A stretch of 35,177 bases of DNA from a virus, in IMG/VR virus record IMGVR_UViG_3300042557_000095, positions 1 through 35,177 of that record; one strand, written 5' to 3'. A program made the translations under genes and the position numbers. Below, piece by piece: positions 1 to 35,177 of this stretch (the first letter of the stretch is position 1; each line of letters opens with the position of its first letter). Under the pieces are notes generated by a model. It had not been told where the DNA came from. It saw only the letters and a list, made by a program, of their open reading frames with translations, and made no database searches.

Positions 1-127
1 TCACACGTGCATTATCTACAATGAAGGACTTAACTGTGTCATGGATGGTTACAGACTTGATTATGTCCCTTGTTTTCCAATTGGTGATATAAACAAATTC
101 GTTTACTTTTTGTGTGTCAACTTGAAT
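1..127. repeat. Exact 127-bp copy of 34488-34614
   Basis: This stretch is identical to 34488-34614; the first mismatch is at 128 (A against G). It lies inside the spanin-like lipoprotein gene. It is one of two anchors of exactly 127 bp that flank a variable locus present at both contig ends, so it is best read as assembly overlap of a circular genome and not as a biological repeat. Confidence 0.9.
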
Positions 128-322
128 ATCTATGTTCACTAAAGTGTCAAACTCAACCAAGGTATCAGACTTTACAATAAAGGTAGTGTCATTAGCACAC
201 ATACCTGATTTAATGACCTCTTTAGCAACTTGGTCAAATTTGTTTCTATCTTTTAATACTTGTTTTACTGGATTGCAAGAAACAAAAAATGTGATAATAA
301 AAAGTATGTAATATTTAAACAT
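1..322 (-). CDS. Spanin-like lipoprotein, endonuclease-plus allele (3' end cut by window)
   Basis: The gene starts at the ATG at 322 and runs off the left edge, so only the N-terminal 107 residues are present. The product opens with a hydrophobic stretch and a lipobox ending FFVSC (Cys15), predicting an outer-membrane lipoprotein. From about residue 47 (CANDTTFIVKSDTL) it matches the complete copy at 34351-34806 almost exactly, but the first 40 or so residues differ strongly. Its start overlaps the end of the homing endonuclease gene by 8 bp. The full-length homologue has a C-terminal membrane segment, so the role is inferred as a single-protein spanin that joins inner and outer membranes at lysis. 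Confidence 0.75.
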   Translation of the reverse strand, partial: MFKYYILFIITFFVSCNPVKQVLKDRNKFDQVAKEVIKSGMCANDTTFIVKSDTLVEFDTLVNIDIQVDTQKVNEFVYITNWKTRDIIKSVTIHDTVKSFIVDNARV

Positions 323-911
323 ATTTTATTTTTGTTTTATTTTTCCTTTGCCCATTTAAATATGCTCTTAAAGTAGATTGTTTATAACCTAATTCTATTG
401 CACATAATTTTATGCAATCCCATACTTTATTTGTTTCTGTGCAATATACCTTTTTTGCTAAATTGTGATTACCTAAACTATTTGCTTTTGATAATTTATC
501 TCTATACTCTTTAGAAAATACTTTACCATAATTAGGATTATTTGCTCCAAGTTTTTTTTGCCTTACTTTTTCTATATGACTTGGACTAAGTTTTTTTCCT
601 TTGCTCGGAGAAGGCATACCTAAAGTACCATCTCCTCCATCAGTTAAATTAGATAATATTCCTGTTTTATTATTAATTCTACCATATAATTTAATAAATT
701 CTTTTTCTTTTATTTTTGCATCTTCATAAGATATGTCATCAAATAATATTTCTACTATATAATCTGTTTTAGAAACAATCCTGCCCCATACCTCATTTCT
801 CTGTTCTTTACTATTTGCTCTTGTATACGAATAATTATTATTACAAGAACTAATTCCTATATAAAAAGGTTGATTCTTGTCAGTTCTAATATGTCTATAA
901 ACGTATGCCAT
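315..911 (-). CDS. GIY-YIG homing endonuclease with NUMOD motifs
   Basis: This 198-residue protein is a free-standing homing endonuclease that would cut an allele lacking it and spread by repair. The N-terminal GIY-YIG domain (about 1-90) starts AYVYRHI, carries PFYIGIS at 15-21, a Glu in KEKEF (69-73) suited to metal binding, and NLTDGG at 88-93. Two NUMOD3-like DNA-binding motifs follow (about 102-120 and 122-143), then a NUMOD1-like segment near 153-188. An in-frame TTG lies at 914, but the ATG at 911 begins the conserved domain. The gene is visibly AT-richer than its neighbours and sits between the holin-like and spanin-like genes without breaking either. It is absent from the other allele at 34790-34806, which marks it as a recent mobile insertion. 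Confidence 0.92.
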   Translation of the reverse strand: MAYVYRHIRTDKNQPFYIGISSCNNNYSYTRANSKEQRNEVWGRIVSKTDYIVEILFDDISYEDAKIKEKEFIKLYGRINNKTGILSNLTDGGDGTLGMPSPSKGKKLSPSHIEKVRQKKLGANNPNYGKVFSKEYRDKLSKANSLGNHNLAKKVYCTETNKVWDCIKLCAIELGYKQSTLRAYLNGQRKNKTKIKYV

Positions 912-920
912 CAAAATATA

Positions 921-1130
921 TTAATCATCCTTCTTGAATATTTTCTCTGCTGAAGTTAAACCAAGGCAACCAAACGCAAGAGCAGATACAGAGTAAACCA
1001 GTGCTTCACTTGGTTCAGTTTCGTAGAATGAATTGTGATACATTGTTACGCAAATAATTATTACGCAGATAAATCCACATAAACGCTTCATTGATAGTCT
1101 GCCGTTTTCTTCACAAAAGAATTGTTTCAT
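921..1130 (-). CDS. Holin-like small membrane protein (endonuclease-plus allele)
   Basis: The product has 69 residues and two likely membrane segments, roughly 18-33 (CGFICVIIICVTMYHN) and 44-60 (VYSVSALAFGCLGLTS), with a charged tail KIFKKDD. Size, topology and position in a lysis block with lipoproteins and an endolysin suggest a holin. The start MKQFF..ENGRLSMKR is the form often seen in Bacteroidetes phage holin-like proteins. The ATG overlaps the stop of the upstream lipoprotein gene (ATGA). The allele at 34790-35008 is three residues longer and differs at several sites. Confidence 0.65.
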   Translation of the reverse strand: MKQFFCEENGRLSMKRLCGFICVIIICVTMYHNSFYETEPSEALVYSVSALAFGCLGLTSAEKIFKKDD

Positions 1131-1480
1131 TGATTTTCTGTTGAGTCAATTGATGAAATGGAATCCGTAGAAGTTTTCTTTCTACCCCAAAAGTTTGTCT
1201 TTTCCTTGATGATAATGGTATCTCTAATTGTAATAGTCTTAACTATTTTTGCATCCTCTTTTAACTTAGCATTTTGCAATTTGATGCTTAATACGTTTAG
1301 CAATACTTGCTTCTCTGCTTTCTCAATATGCTTGTCAACTTTTGGGAGGAACTTTACAATAGTGTCAACGTGTTCCCTTGATTGCATAAGGATAGTATCA
1401 ACCCTATCAAAAAGGACTTTCTCCTCCTTGACAGGGTTGGCACATGATGAGATAAATAGTAATACAATTAATCGTTTCAT
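1127..1480 (-). CDS. Small lipoprotein with helical body; possible outer-membrane spanin subunit
   Basis: The 117-residue product has a short signal sequence and lipobox (LLFISSC, Cys13), then a charged, helix-prone body, consistent with a periplasmic lipoprotein anchored in the outer membrane. It overlaps the upstream single-TM coiled-coil gene and the downstream holin-like gene by 4 bp each, so translation is probably coupled. TM-coiled-coil protein followed by lipoprotein is the layout of two-component i-spanin/o-spanin pairs. A second lipoprotein with spanin features lies just downstream, so which one disrupts the outer membrane is open. Part of the gene is repeated at the right contig end. 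Confidence 0.6.
   Translation of the reverse strand: MKRLIVLLFISSCANPVKEEKVLFDRVDTILMQSREHVDTIVKFLPKVDKHIEKAEKQVLLNVLSIKLQNAKLKEDAKIVKTITIRDTIIIKEKTNFWGRKKTSTDSISSIDSTENQ
1173..1299. repeat. Exact 127-bp copy of 35051-35177
   Basis: This stretch is identical to the last 127 bases of the window; the base just outside (1172, A against G) differs. It is the second anchor of the duplicated locus and lies inside the small lipoprotein gene. Confidence 0.9.
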
Positions 1481-5911: not shown

Positions 5912-6505
5912 TTATTCGCCACAACAACGATTTATATCTCCTTGATATTTTTCTTCAAATGTTTTGTATCTACCGCAATCATAATCCCCCAACCAAATTG
6001 TAGTGGTGTAGGCATCATTGTCTGGGACAATGGTATCAACACCAGTTCCAGGATTAATGTATTCGGGATATTTAGCACTCGCTTGAGATTCTTGCTTGAG
6101 GTACTTGATTAACCTTTGTTTGTAGAACTCCGCCCTTGCACCATACCTATTCGCTACATCTGCCAACTCTGACGCACTCGGTTCTGTTTGGTTATCACCT
6201 GACTTCCTTACTACTCCCTTATTGTAGAACTGGTAAGACAATGCCATTGGGAGTTCACTCATTACATAGTAAACCAAGCAAGGTGTTATGTAGGTGTTAA
6301 GCAAAGTTTCCTCATCGCAAGTCAAATCACCGCATTCAATACCCGTTTGTAACTTCTCATAAAGTGCAGTTCCCAAAGCAGGGAGGATATATGCATCCTG
6401 TGCATAAAGGATATCAGGAAAGACTAACTTAGGGTCTACATTTACATGAAGTCCTGTTCTGTCCTTTATCGTATCTACTGAGATAAATAATATATTTCTG
6501 CTCAT
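5912..6505 (-). CDS. Head-tail connector-like protein
   Basis: The 197-residue product begins MSRNILFISVDTIKDRTGLHVNVDPKLVFPD and is mainly helical (YAQDAYILPALGTALYEKLQ), the pattern of Bacteroidetes phage adaptor proteins analogous to the gp6-type connector below the portal. The C-terminus is Cys-rich (YDCGRY ... NRCCGE). It starts one base after the portal stop behind a short A-rich leader, so it is probably co-translated with the portal. Confidence 0.55.
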   Translation of the reverse strand: MSRNILFISVDTIKDRTGLHVNVDPKLVFPDILYAQDAYILPALGTALYEKLQTGIECGDLTCDEETLLNTYITPCLVYYVMSELPMALSYQFYNKGVVRKSGDNQTEPSASELADVANRYGARAEFYKQRLIKYLKQESQASAKYPEYINPGTGVDTIVPDNDAYTTTIWLGDYDCGRYKTFEEKYQGDINRCCGE

Positions 6506-6506
6506 T

Positions 6507-8495
6507 TTATTTCTTCTTTTTTACTACTACATTTCGCCTCCATTCGTGCCTGCAACTTGGTGAATCTCCCCACCAACCACCGCCTCTATCAAAGACTGAA
6601 TAACCAAGTCTTGCACTTAGCATCTCTATCCCGCTTCTACTCCAAAGTCTTTGCTCACCATACAACTTCCGACAAAAAGACCTTGAAGGTTTTTCTAACG
6701 AATCTCTATCCTCTTTTGGTACAATCGGTTTCCACTCGTAAGAATACTTAACCTCAAAGGTTGTTACATCCATATCATCAACCAACTTGCTCAATGGTTT
6801 GGTTAACTTCCTTTCATCAATCTTAGGGTCATAAGTTACTGCACCCGATTCAACCAAGTAATACAATCTCCCTTGTACAACCTCTCTGCTTTTCCTTACT
6901 GCACTTGCAATGTCATCAATGCTTATTTTCCTATCCTTGTCAATTAAGGCAAGGATTTGCTTATCAAGTGTCTTGTCTATCAAATCACCCTCTGCAAACG
7001 CATCCCGACTGCTAAAAACCGCCTTTGAATTGATTATGGTATAATCACTCTTAGGTTCTCCAACCTCCCTAAATAAGCCTATAACAGTGTCCTCATCCAA
7101 TGCAGAAAAACTAAAGTCCTCGGTCATTGGGTCATCATCTATGCCGAGCATAGCATTAACCTCATTGTCGGTCATTCCAAGACCCGATTTGAGCATAGTT
7201 ACTGCAATCTCTTTGGATATCTTACCTTGAGAAAACTGCCTAATAACACGCATCAAGTGTTGGTATTGTCTACCACTAAGATTCTTTAGATTATCGTTTA
7301 CCTCTACTTGTTCTTGATTCAAACTTGGTTGAGTTGCTTCAGTTGGTGCATATTTTGCAACATCAATACCTGCCTTTTCCAATAACCACTCTTTAGGAGC
7401 AATCTGCAAAAGTGCTTGTTCGCTTAACTCAAACCCGATAGGTTCTACTGGTATAATGCTTATCTCTGAAGTCGCACCTTTTAAGGTTGCAAGTTGAGTA
7501 AAGATAGATTCAAGGAACTGCTGCTTATCGTTTACATAGGTGTTCTTAAATATCTCATAAGAATCCCTTATTTGTGTTCTGCTGCCCAACTGCCCAGGTT
7601 CGGCAATACCGAAAAGACTTGGTGAGGTGATTTGATGACCTGCAAACAAGTTATTCTGTATAATCAAGTCAACCCTTGTGAAGTCCTCTTTTGTAATATC
7701 ACTTGCACCAAGGTCCTCTATAATTGGTTTTCTTGCAGGGTCAGTGGTAAATGACAAGATAAATTTCTTTCCATCACTACCACTAAATCTATCTGTAAAC
7801 CTTCTTTCAATGTTTCTCTTCTCATCGGGTGAAGGTTCACCATTTGGAAGGGTAATAAGTTTGGATGCACTGAATCCCGTTTGAGCATTGCCAAGAACGT
7901 GTCTGCTGACTTCTATATCAGATTCAATATAGTTCAATGCACCCATATAACCAGGCAAAGCATAAGTATCTAAACCTGGTCTATATTCCTTAATGTAAAG
8001 TATCTGCTTCCCTTGACGCACTTTCGTGTTGAATGCCATCATAGGGATTAACTCATCCTTTCTTTCGTTCCAATCTTTTTTGTACCAAAACTGTGTATTG
8101 TCCGTGTTGGACCTTATTTTGGTATAGTCAATATGTAAGACATCGGTTAACTGCCCACCCGTTACGGACCAAATCACCTCAAGGTAAGCACCTCCAAAGA
8201 TTTCAATGTCAATAGAAACCTTCCTTGTCAAATCGTTCAAGGATTCAAACTGATTAGGTTGTGCAATGAATTGGTCCGCAATAGGGTCTACCTCATCACT
8301 CTTCCATCCGTTTCCGATAATGTAATTAACCTTACCTTTTACGATAGCATTGTGTTTTGCACTTTTATTGTAAAGCGATAAAAGATAGTTAGGGTAATCG
8401 TTCTTTTCACCGAATTCAATATATCCCTTGCCCCTCTTTTCTCTATATTCGGGTTGCCTTGCCTCTTGAAAATTAAGTATTACTAAATCATTCAT
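6507..8495 (-). CDS. Portal protein with C-terminal winged-helix-like and CRH extensions
   Basis: The first 380 or so residues look like a phage portal: YPNYLLSLYNKSAKHNAIVKGK near the start, a long central segment with VDLIIQNNLFAGHQITSPSLFGI, and stem-like helices. The 662-residue protein is longer than many siphovirus portals. Residues about 511-555 (KQILALIDKDRKISIDDIASA ... GRLYYLVESGAV) have the shape of a winged helix. The last part holds SRSFC (604-608), a GGGWWGD turn and CRHEW (648-652), recalling the C-terminal part of Mu F/SPP1 gp7-like minor head proteins. This may be a portal with minor-head functions attached. It overlaps the preceding gene by 4 bp. Confidence 0.8.
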   Translation of the reverse strand: MNDLVILNFQEARQPEYREKRGKGYIEFGEKNDYPNYLLSLYNKSAKHNAIVKGKVNYIIGNGWKSDEVDPIADQFIAQPNQFESLNDLTRKVSIDIEIFGGAYLEVIWSVTGGQLTDVLHIDYTKIRSNTDNTQFWYKKDWNERKDELIPMMAFNTKVRQGKQILYIKEYRPGLDTYALPGYMGALNYIESDIEVSRHVLGNAQTGFSASKLITLPNGEPSPDEKRNIERRFTDRFSGSDGKKFILSFTTDPARKPIIEDLGASDITKEDFTRVDLIIQNNLFAGHQITSPSLFGIAEPGQLGSRTQIRDSYEIFKNTYVNDKQQFLESIFTQLATLKGATSEISIIPVEPIGFELSEQALLQIAPKEWLLEKAGIDVAKYAPTEATQPSLNQEQVEVNDNLKNLSGRQYQHLMRVIRQFSQGKISKEIAVTMLKSGLGMTDNEVNAMLGIDDDPMTEDFSFSALDEDTVIGLFREVGEPKSDYTIINSKAVFSSRDAFAEGDLIDKTLDKQILALIDKDRKISIDDIASAVRKSREVVQGRLYYLVESGAVTYDPKIDERKLTKPLSKLVDDMDVTTFEVKYSYEWKPIVPKEDRDSLEKPSRSFCRKLYGEQRLWSRSGIEMLSARLGYSVFDRGGGWWGDSPSCRHEWRRNVVVKKKK

Positions 8496-32948: not shown

Positions 32949-33914
32949 CTAAAGAACTTTGCCTTTGAATATCCTTTTATTTCTTACCTCAAAGTTTTGC
33001 CCGTCAATATCTATTAATGCCATACCCCAATTCCATTTGTTTATGGGGAGATAGGCAGGATGCAATTCACATAGGCAACCAAGCGACCAAGTAGTGGTTA
33101 TTTCCCCGTTCATGTTTGATTCCGTATGTTCACTCGTAGAATGGTTATGACCTTGCATTGCAGATACCTTACCCTTCAAAAACAAACCCCTTGCAATGTT
33201 TACGGGACTGAATACCGAACCACCAAACTCATGCCCATGAATAATATTAAGGTCACCTGCTTTCATTATCCGCTTGTCCTTAATTATCTCTATACCTTCT
33301 GCTCTTGACTTAATAATGTTTTCAAGTTCAAACTCTTCTACCCCAACAATCTCATGTGCTTTCATCCAAAGGAAATGGAAATACCTTTCCTCGTGGTTAC
33401 CAATCTTGAAGTAAATCTTGGCATCAAATGTACTTTTCAGCACATCCATAAACTCCTTAAATGTTTTTAGTTCATGTGCAAATGACCTCGCCTTTGGGTC
33501 TTTGGCAAACCTTGACAATCCAAAAAAGTCTAAGGTGTCACCATTCAAAAGTATTGCATCAGGCTTCTCATCTTTTGCATAATCAAATGCACAGGTTAAC
33601 GCATCAATACTATGGTAAGGAATGTGGATGTCGGAAAGAACCAGCAAACGCTTCGCTTTTAGTTGATAAGGTTCATAAATTGCCTCATCAGATTGTGGCA
33701 AGTTATAAGGATTCTTAGGTCTTCCATCAACCTCTTTTCTGATTGCTACTCTCTGACCTGCTTTACCTTCTATGCTTCTCAAACAAGTTCTTGCCGTTTC
33801 AAGTGAATTAAATAGCAAAGGATTATCTTGATAGACAATCCTTGCAAGTTTTAAGGTCGGCATATCCCATCCGAACCTTTCACGATAATCTGCACAAATG
33901 TTAACCTTTGTCAT
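32949..33914 (-). CDS. Calcineurin-like metallophosphoesterase
   Basis: The 321-residue protein has the metallophosphoesterase motifs in order: SDIH (94-97), NGDTLD (124-129), GNHE (172-175), HGHE (226-229) and GHNH (255-258), which bind two metal ions. The first 80 residues are a separate helical domain (RERFGWDMPTLKLARIVYQD), followed by a linker. Phage versions may act on nucleic acids or nucleotides. It is encoded after the endolysin with a 4-bp overlap, an uncommon place for a DNA-metabolism enzyme, so a late role is likely. Confidence 0.88.
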   Translation of the reverse strand: MTKVNICADYRERFGWDMPTLKLARIVYQDNPLLFNSLETARTCLRSIEGKAGQRVAIRKEVDGRPKNPYNLPQSDEAIYEPYQLKAKRLLVLSDIHIPYHSIDALTCAFDYAKDEKPDAILLNGDTLDFFGLSRFAKDPKARSFAHELKTFKEFMDVLKSTFDAKIYFKIGNHEERYFHFLWMKAHEIVGVEEFELENIIKSRAEGIEIIKDKRIMKAGDLNIIHGHEFGGSVFSPVNIARGLFLKGKVSAMQGHNHSTSEHTESNMNGEITTTWSLGCLCELHPAYLPINKWNWGMALIDIDGQNFEVRNKRIFKGKVL

Positions 33915-34354
33915 TTGAAATATAGATTAGATTCTGCTTCTCTTCTTCTTGTAAGACCTGCAAGAACCTTGCCACCTGCTTTGTTCCACTTTAAGAACTC
34001 TGCCTTTATGCTTGGGTCATTATGATTAGCAATAACCTTTTTCAACAATGTTGACTTCTGAAGATTAGCAATGCCACAATTATATGCAAAAGAAACTAAT
34101 GCACCGAATTGGTTAGGGGTTATATGCGATGGCACTAATTTTACAATCTTAGCAGAGAAATCATTTGAAATCAGTTCAAAAAGTTGCTCTGCTTTCTCTT
34201 GAGATATTGCATTTCCTGCAACAACTGGTGTACCATCTTCAAAGAAAGTATTTCCATACCCAATAGTCCACTTCATTGCAGAGCATTGGTATGCTTTAAG
34301 TTTACATCCTTCAAATGATTTAATTAAGTCTGCACCTTCTTTGTTCAGTTTCAT
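33911..34354 (-). CDS. Endolysin, T4-type lysozyme (GH24)
   Basis: The 147-residue enzyme cuts the peptidoglycan glycan strand at lysis. The catalytic triad has the E-8-C/D-5-T spacing of the GH24 family: Glu15 in SFEG, Cys24 in YQCSA, Thr30 in WTIGYG. The C-terminal domain has FGALVSFAYNCGIANLQKST and LAGLTRRREAESNLY. No signal or anchor sequence is present, so release across the inner membrane depends on the holin-like protein. It overlaps the spanin-like gene by 4 bp. Confidence 0.95.
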   Translation of the reverse strand: MKLNKEGADLIKSFEGCKLKAYQCSAMKWTIGYGNTFFEDGTPVVAGNAISQEKAEQLFELISNDFSAKIVKLVPSHITPNQFGALVSFAYNCGIANLQKSTLLKKVIANHNDPSIKAEFLKWNKAGGKVLAGLTRRREAESNLYFK

Positions 34355-34806
34355 ATTTTAGATTTAATGTATAATGCACCCAATATCATTGCAATGATTG
34401 CAAACAACCAAATTTGCCTTCTTTTTGCTTTTCCTTTCCATTCTATTACCTCGCCTCCTAAACGTGCTGAATCTGCCTGTAATAACCTCACACGTGCATT
34501 ATCTACAATGAAGGACTTAACTGTGTCATGGATGGTTACAGACTTGATTATGTCCCTTGTTTTCCAATTGGTGATATAAACAAATTCGTTTACTTTTTGT
34601 GTGTCAACTTGAATGTCTATGTTCACTAAAGTGTCAAACTCAACCAATGTATCAGACTTGACAATAAAGGTAGTGTCATTAGCACACCATCCTCCCTTTA
34701 CTACAACCTTTGCGACTTCTTCAAGTTTATCTTGGTCACGCAATACCTGCTTAACAGGGTTGCACCCAATTAACAAAAGCAATGAAAGACTAATCCTTAT
34801 TTTCAT
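34351..34806 (-). CDS. Unimolecular spanin candidate (lipoprotein with C-terminal TM)
   Basis: The ATG at 34806 (MKIRISLSLLLLIGCNPVKQ) gives a 151-residue protein with lipobox LLIGC (Cys15) and, at the other end, a hydrophobic segment IWLFAIIAMILGALYIKSKI. A lipoprotein anchor in the outer membrane and a C-terminal helix in the inner membrane are the defining features of u-spanins such as T1 gp11, which fuse the two membranes at lysis. The middle is charged and beta/helix mixed (FVYITNWKTRDIIKSVTIHD). It overlaps the endolysin and holin-like genes. This is the endonuclease-free allele. Confidence 0.75.
   Translation of the reverse strand: MKIRISLSLLLLIGCNPVKQVLRDQDKLEEVAKVVVKGGWCANDTTFIVKSDTLVEFDTLVNIDIQVDTQKVNEFVYITNWKTRDIIKSVTIHDTVKSFIVDNARVRLLQADSARLGGEVIEWKGKAKRRQIWLFAIIAMILGALYIKSKI
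34488..34614. repeat. Exact 127-bp copy of 1-127
   Basis: This segment is identical to the left end of the window. See the entry at 1-127 for its reading as assembly overlap of a circular genome. Confidence 0.9.
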
Positions 34807-35008
34807 CCTTCTTAAATATTTTCTCAGCACTTGTCAAACCAAGGCAACCAAATGCAAGAGCAGACACAGAGTAAACAAGTGCTTCTGATGGTTCAGTTTC
34901 GTAGAATGAGTTATGGTACATTGTAACGCAGATGATGACTACGCAAGTAAAACCGCAAAGTCGCTTCATTGATAGTCTGCCGTTCTCTTCACAAAAAAAT
35001 TGTTTCAT
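34790..35008 (-). CDS. Holin-like small membrane protein (endonuclease-free allele)
   Basis: The 72-residue product matches the 69-residue protein at 921-1130 except for a few substitutions and a C-terminal KKDENKD. It has the same two membrane segments. Here the stop overlaps the spanin-like start by 17 bp, a compact link that is lost in the other allele where the endonuclease lies between the genes. Confidence 0.65.
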   Translation of the reverse strand: MKQFFCEENGRLSMKRLCGFTCVVIICVTMYHNSFYETEPSEALVYSVSALAFGCLGLTSAEKIFKKDENKD

Positions 35009-35177
35009 TGATTTTCAGTTGAGTCAATTGATGAAATGGAATCGGTAGAGGTTTTCTTTCTACCCCAAAAGTTTGTCTTTTCCTTGATGATAATGGTATC
35101 TCTAATTGTAATAGTCTTAACTATTTTTGCATCCTCTTTTAACTTAGCATTTTGCAATTTGATGCTTAATACGTTTA
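35005..35177 (-). CDS. Small lipoprotein, C-terminal part (5' end beyond window)
   Basis: This is the second copy of the gene at 1127-1480; only the last 56 codons and the stop lie inside the window. It ends SSIDSTENQ with the TGA overlapping the holin-like ATG. The last 127 bases match 1173-1299 exactly. Confidence 0.8.
   Translation of the reverse strand, partial: NVLSIKLQNAKLKEDAKIVKTITIRDTIIIKEKTNFWGRKKTSTDSISSIDSTENQ
35051..35177. repeat. Exact 127-bp copy of 1173-1299
   Basis: The right end of the window repeats 1173-1299 without a mismatch; the base before it (35050, G) differs from 1172 (A). It is the right-hand anchor of the duplicated lysis locus. Confidence 0.9.

Follow-up and report, generated by a model that had tools for sequence, protein, structure and literature searches.

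The window analysed here is a whole virus record of 35177 bases (IMGVR_UViG_3300042557_000095), and it contains the junction between a holin-like and a spanin-like gene twice, once at each end. In one copy a reading frame for a homing endonuclease lies between the two genes, while in the other the genes overlap. The locus therefore raises the question of whether a selfish gene has been caught moving among related phages, and if so how much of the surrounding DNA has moved with it. Positions 1-1299 align to 34488-35177, with a length difference of 609 bp, and define the two alleles:

1-1299, unstranded: endonuclease-carrying allele (arm 1 of an assembly bubble), aligned to 34488-35177 apart from the insertion.
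34488-35177, unstranded: endonuclease-free allele (arm 2), from the same alignment.

Both the alignment and the open reading frames bear out the original prediction that the endonuclease gene is present at the holin-like/spanin-like junction in one allele only. Counted in steps of 50 bp along the short allele, the mismatches number 0, 0, 1, 2, 22, 14, 11, 5, 8, 9, 2, 2, 0 and 0. The genes at the two junctions are:

2-322, minus strand: chimeric spanin-like lipoprotein gene of the carrier allele, continuing into 34351-34487 on the circle.
315-911, minus strand: freestanding homing endonuclease of 198 aa with a GIY-YIG nuclease domain, a NUMOD3 motif and a C-terminal helix-turn-helix (from the ORF, profiles and fold).
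921-1130, minus strand: holin-like gene of the carrier allele, 69 aa, with a C-terminus ending in KKDD (from size, hydrophobicity and position).
33911-34354, minus strand: endolysin (Phage_lysozyme, by family match), the next gene of the lysis cassette.
34351-34806, minus strand: native spanin-like gene with a u-spanin-like layout, i.e., a lipobox near the N-terminus and a hydrophobic C-terminus.
34790-35008, minus strand: holin-like gene of the endonuclease-free allele, with an overlap of 17 nt between its 3' end and the start of the spanin gene.

The names holin-like and spanin-like are assigned from size, hydrophobic segments, the lipobox and position; profile searches gave no family match for either protein. 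A second small lipoprotein-like gene (MKRLIVLLFISSCANPVK...) is found upstream of the holin-like gene, at 1127-1480. In the carrier allele the holin-like, endonuclease and spanin-like frames are all intact, and the holin stops slightly earlier, at KKDD, than that of the endonuclease-free allele. The endonuclease ORF is freestanding: it has a start and a stop of its own and lies between two intact genes that, like it, are on the minus strand. It starts 9 nt past the holin stop, and at its stop it overlaps the start of the spanin gene (ATG) by 8 nt; its GC content is 26.1%.

The endonuclease protein matches NUMOD3 above the Pfam cut-off and PHROG 314, homing endonuclease, with an E-value of 6.9e-18; the Pfam GIY-YIG model itself is absent from its Pfam matches. 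The GIY-YIG residues Y5, Y17, G19, R31, E71 and N88 are invariant in a comparison of 35 sequences. A sequence-profile search against solved structures returned nothing related, although the fold search did. The predicted structure (mean pLDDT 72.5) aligns to the catalytic domain of I-TevI (1ln0) with Z 8.8 and an rmsd of 2.1 over 81 residues, and to the GIY-YIG domain of UvrC with Z 7.4, while its C-terminal domain aligns to the DNA-binding domains of I-HmuI (Z 6.6) and I-TevI (Z 6.1). Catalytic motifs, a predicted GIY-YIG fold and homing-type DNA-binding modules are all found in this protein, as in a GIY-YIG homing endonuclease. The predicted fold and the order of domains, GIY-YIG, NUMOD3-type motif and helix-turn-helix, are those of I-TevI, the endonuclease of the T4 td intron. 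However, the endonuclease of the window lies outside introns and is only 16% identical to I-TevI over the catalytic domain.

Relatives of the endonuclease were sought in 2.9 million viral contigs, a search in which records very near the window may be omitted. It revealed one identical copy, in the 8749-base contig IMGVR_UViG_3300043568_000186 (L010), and 61 further relatives at much lower identity. An exact DNA search agrees, as L010 is the sole other contig with this endonuclease gene. A search of bacterial genomes gave one weak match only. The identity between the two carriers extends beyond the gene:

195-962, unstranded: transferred tract, 768 bp identical to L010, with switch points at 194-201 on the left and 957-963 on the right.

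There are no mismatches between the window and L010 within 195-962, compared to 56 in 1-194 and 42 in 963-1299. Outside the tract L010 differs by 8-29%, with 29% just to the left and about 12% to the right. When the window is compared with about 190 fetched loci, the tract is also the only exact match longer than 300 bp. The next longest, 291 bp, has surroundings that are 96-97% identical, and those of most other long matches are 94-99% identical, whereas the flanks of the endonuclease tract are 71% and 88% identical. Sites that are informative among the carrier, arm 2 and L010 show the same edges. In 1-194, 54 sites group the carrier with arm 2 and one with L010; in 195-286 all 36 group the carrier with L010, as do all eight in 924-962, and the native type is found again at 963 and 965. 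The tract thus reaches past the gene by about 115-120 bp towards the spanin and by about 46-51 bp towards the holin. Judged from these alignments, the endonuclease with its short flanks is a recently copied tract that is present in two phage backgrounds.

The presence/absence polymorphism consists of these two carriers, the window and L010, against 52 endonuclease-free alleles, i.e., arm 2 and 51 contigs, a set that was widened by a search with the holin-like protein. All seven contigs with the 1-127 flank are without the endonuclease. In the exact search the chimeric junction of the window is found in no other contig, while the junction of arm 2 recurs in L004 and L199. Searched as DNA against the phage collection, 30001-35177 gave zero matches, and the portal gave distant matches only, to the Nonlabens phages P12024S and P12024L. 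With two carriers the independent transfers cannot be counted, and either carrier may have received the tract first, from the other or from elsewhere.

On the spanin side the divergence peak of the original prediction is real and sharp, with dense mismatches from 201. Over 1-200 the carrier hardly differs from arm 2, L004 and L008. In 201-286 it is instead identical to L010 and differs by about 40% from the endonuclease-free alleles. This segment is part of a longer one:

201-322, minus strand: foreign spanin 5' end travelling with the endonuclease (from flank and protein alignments and GC content).

An endonuclease-free allele with the flank of the carrier would have spoken against homing; on this side the carrier sequence at 201-322 is found in none of the 52. 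The same is true of the spanin N-terminus that both carriers have, MFKYYILFIITFFVSCNPVKQVLKDRNKFDQVAKEVIKSGMCANDTT (MFKYYILF...CANDTT). The C-terminal part of the spanin, in contrast, is in each carrier of the type found in its own relatives, and differs between the window and L010. The foreign end has a GC content of 24.6%, against 38.7% in the native equivalent. From the shared foreign N-terminus joined to different resident C-termini, we conclude that a cassette of the endonuclease and a spanin 5' end entered two backgrounds, and the alignments show that the 5' end of the native spanin gene gave way to the tract. In a donor search with the foreign end, L010 was the sole match besides the window, so the original donor was not found; the next-nearest matches are partial, at most 75% identical, and the DNA fetched for them contains no endonuclease relative. 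Past the conserved CANDTT motif, the spanin-like proteins of otherwise similar phages have C-terminal halves of at least two types, which are shuffled among these phages. As seen in these alignments, CANDTT is a recombination boundary independent of the endonuclease.

The holin side is different, and there the original prediction holds in part. The mismatches at 936-957 fit the transferred tract, while those at 975-1083 do not. Moreover, the endonuclease-free contigs L004 and L008 do match the carrier at 925-962, bar at most two bases, so this flank carries little information about homing. Further out, L010 is no longer on the side of the window:

963-1172, unstranded: holin-side polymorphism unrelated to the endonuclease donor, a pre-existing mosaic (from the three-way comparison).

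In 986-1100 there are 20 sites at which L010 sides with arm 2 while the carrier differs, and at 987-1083 L010 has the type of arm 2. In the endonuclease-free L004, on the other hand, 1047-1083 is almost entirely of the window's type. The whole divergence peak cannot be a single co-conversion tract, since L010 has the other, endonuclease-free type at 975-1083. By this comparison, the divergence at 975-1083 is an older, separate mosaicism of the holin gene.

Given such mosaicism, it has to be asked whether ordinary homologous recombination simply swapped a short segment in which the endonuclease lay by chance, without any cutting. Spanin C-terminal types are indeed shuffled among contigs without any endonuclease, the holin block at 1047-1083 recurs in L004, as described above, and one breakpoint of the tract is at conserved codons. 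However, an exact match of this length is found nowhere else among the loci compared, and it is centred on the endonuclease between strongly diverged flanks. In addition, a different endonuclease lineage is present at the same holin 3' end in two other contigs (L031:135-590 and L039:5001-5342), which favours targeting; this holin 3' end has probably been invaded at least twice. We therefore consider recombination without cutting unlikely.

Relatives of the endonuclease also occur at other sites. They are found at the end of a phosphoesterase-like gene in four related phages (L018, L019, L020 and L021), a site that is empty in the window (32949-32980), and directly after a portal-like gene (L043:3263-3901), where the window is also empty (6503-6519). 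In L031 there is a second endonuclease after the endolysin (about 1517), so that the lysis cassette is interleaved with endonuclease genes, and an endonuclease stop overlaps the endolysin start.

We suggest that this is most probably a freestanding GIY-YIG homing endonuclease gene that moves among related phages by intronless homing. The original prediction that it spreads with co-converted flanks is strongly supported by the tract shared with L010 and the foreign spanin 5' end, although the co-converted part is smaller than first proposed and excludes the wider holin divergence. The edges of the co-conversion tract are sharp and directly visible in the alignments, and its origin by cutting is the probable explanation. 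In a mixed infection, the endonuclease would cut the native site, most likely in or beside the spanin 5' end (34688-34806). Resection of the break would proceed to the nearest homology, and repair would use the carrier as template, by which the gene is inserted and its flanks are co-converted. The recoded spanin 5' end would then shield carriers from self-cutting and, as its ATG lies within the overlap with the endonuclease stop, would keep the lysis gene expressed. On either side the tract stops at a short stretch of homology, at the conserved ANDTT codons and at the holin 3' end respectively; edges at the first good homology beside a diverged segment fit this model of cutting, resection and repair. 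The version without the endonuclease is still found in this assembly, as well as in about 50 related contigs.

Endonuclease-free phages have a well-conserved native spanin 5' end, and the carriers a recoded one, which makes this end the likeliest target region:

34688-34806, minus strand: native spanin 5' end, the region in or near which cleavage is predicted (from conservation and recoding).

The cut site proposed originally, at the endonuclease-free junction 34790-34806, lies inside this region and is a possible candidate, but the spanin 5' end as a whole is at least as good. Cleavage, the target and biased inheritance are all inferred. More tentatively, and with about even chances at best, the mobile unit may be the endonuclease together with the recoded spanin 5' end as its immunity; in one step, a recipient would then exchange its native site for a resistant one and acquire a new signal sequence for a lysis lipoprotein.

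All of this presumes that the contig is correct. A fragment of an L010-like phage might have been misjoined to this one during assembly, and the wrap-around join of the two arms with exact 127-bp overlaps indicates that the assembler did make choices here. However, a misjoin in a de Bruijn graph needs a long shared k-mer, and at the left switch L010 and the native sequence share only six identical bases (195-200), or about 22 with one mismatch, far below the usual k. The same kind of spanin chimera is also present in L010, a separate contig, with a different native part. For these two reasons we reject a misjoin as very improbable.

The ends of the contig are best explained by the assembly. 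At each outer end there is an identical run of exactly 127 bp, with 1-127 equal to 34488-34614 and 1173-1299 equal to 35051-35177. A de Bruijn assembler run at k=127 leaves an overlap of exactly 127 bp. The two runs fit a bubble in such an assembly graph, with k deduced from the sequence itself. Consequently, the contig says nothing about how similar the alleles are beyond the bubble, and the low divergence farther out that had been taken as a sign of co-conversion or of segment replacement is partly set by the assembler. We read the contig as arm 1, a shared circle and arm 2, with both alleles present in the sample, and the phage as mapping to a circle of about 34 kb, i.e., 34487 bp with the endonuclease and 33878 bp without it. 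That one phage genome contains both copies, as a diverged terminal repeat or a duplication, is suggested by their presence in one contig but is extremely unlikely, as the outer identities are exactly 127 bp at each end and related contigs have the locus once, except for a 43-kb wrap-around contig in which the distance between the copies is the genome length. In that contig (IMGVR_UViG_3300046820_000897, 43229 bases) the holin junction is found twice, as L096 and L099, about 34.5 kb apart; it is another wrap-around contig of a circularly mapping genome.

Intronless homing with co-conversion is established for the seg genes of T4, whose freestanding endonucleases cut a neighbouring gene of the non-carrier, after which the break is resected and repaired from the carrier with co-conversion (PMC2988022). 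For SegF and SegG, both intronless homing and marker exclusion are described (PMC2988022). As here, a freestanding GIY-YIG gene lies between two phage genes and is absent from relatives, the neighbouring gene differs between carrier and non-carrier, the flanks are co-converted and the target is expected in the neighbour. Unlike T4, the present case concerns an unrelated phage of about 34 kb and a lysis cassette, the tract is shorter than 770 bp, and the activity and the cut site are predicted.

Similarly, in HEG islands and at boundary HEGs, an endonuclease is found at the centre or edge of a segment of high identity between otherwise diverged phages, and different endonucleases occur at the same site (PMC10448857). 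However, these regions exceed 10 kb, while the segment here is below 1 kb and its cargo is a 120-bp piece of one gene. The I-HmuI-like HNH endonucleases of Skunavirus, for which marker exclusion activity is reported, also vary in number and insertion site within a natural group of phages (PMC12724721); they belong to the HNH family and to cultured dairy phages, in contrast to a GIY-YIG enzyme in metagenomic contigs. In the literature, as covered by open-licence papers, no direct precedent from metagenomes was found. The class of mechanism is not new. This is a well-resolved natural case of a known process, and a cleaner one than most.

The locus also shows that an assembly bubble can preserve a segregating selfish gene, and it provides a warning, as contig ends that are identical over exactly 127 bp are an assembly overlap and not biology. 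What is known of co-conversion around freestanding phage endonucleases comes mainly from crosses of T4-like phages in the laboratory. The window and L010 give a base-resolution view of it in uncultured phages, with an invaded allele, an empty allele and a second invaded background. The case predicts a cut site and suggests that, through homing, a lysis protein can have its signal end rebuilt. If the recoded spanin 5' end does act as immunity, homing would also exchange part of a lysis protein among phages.
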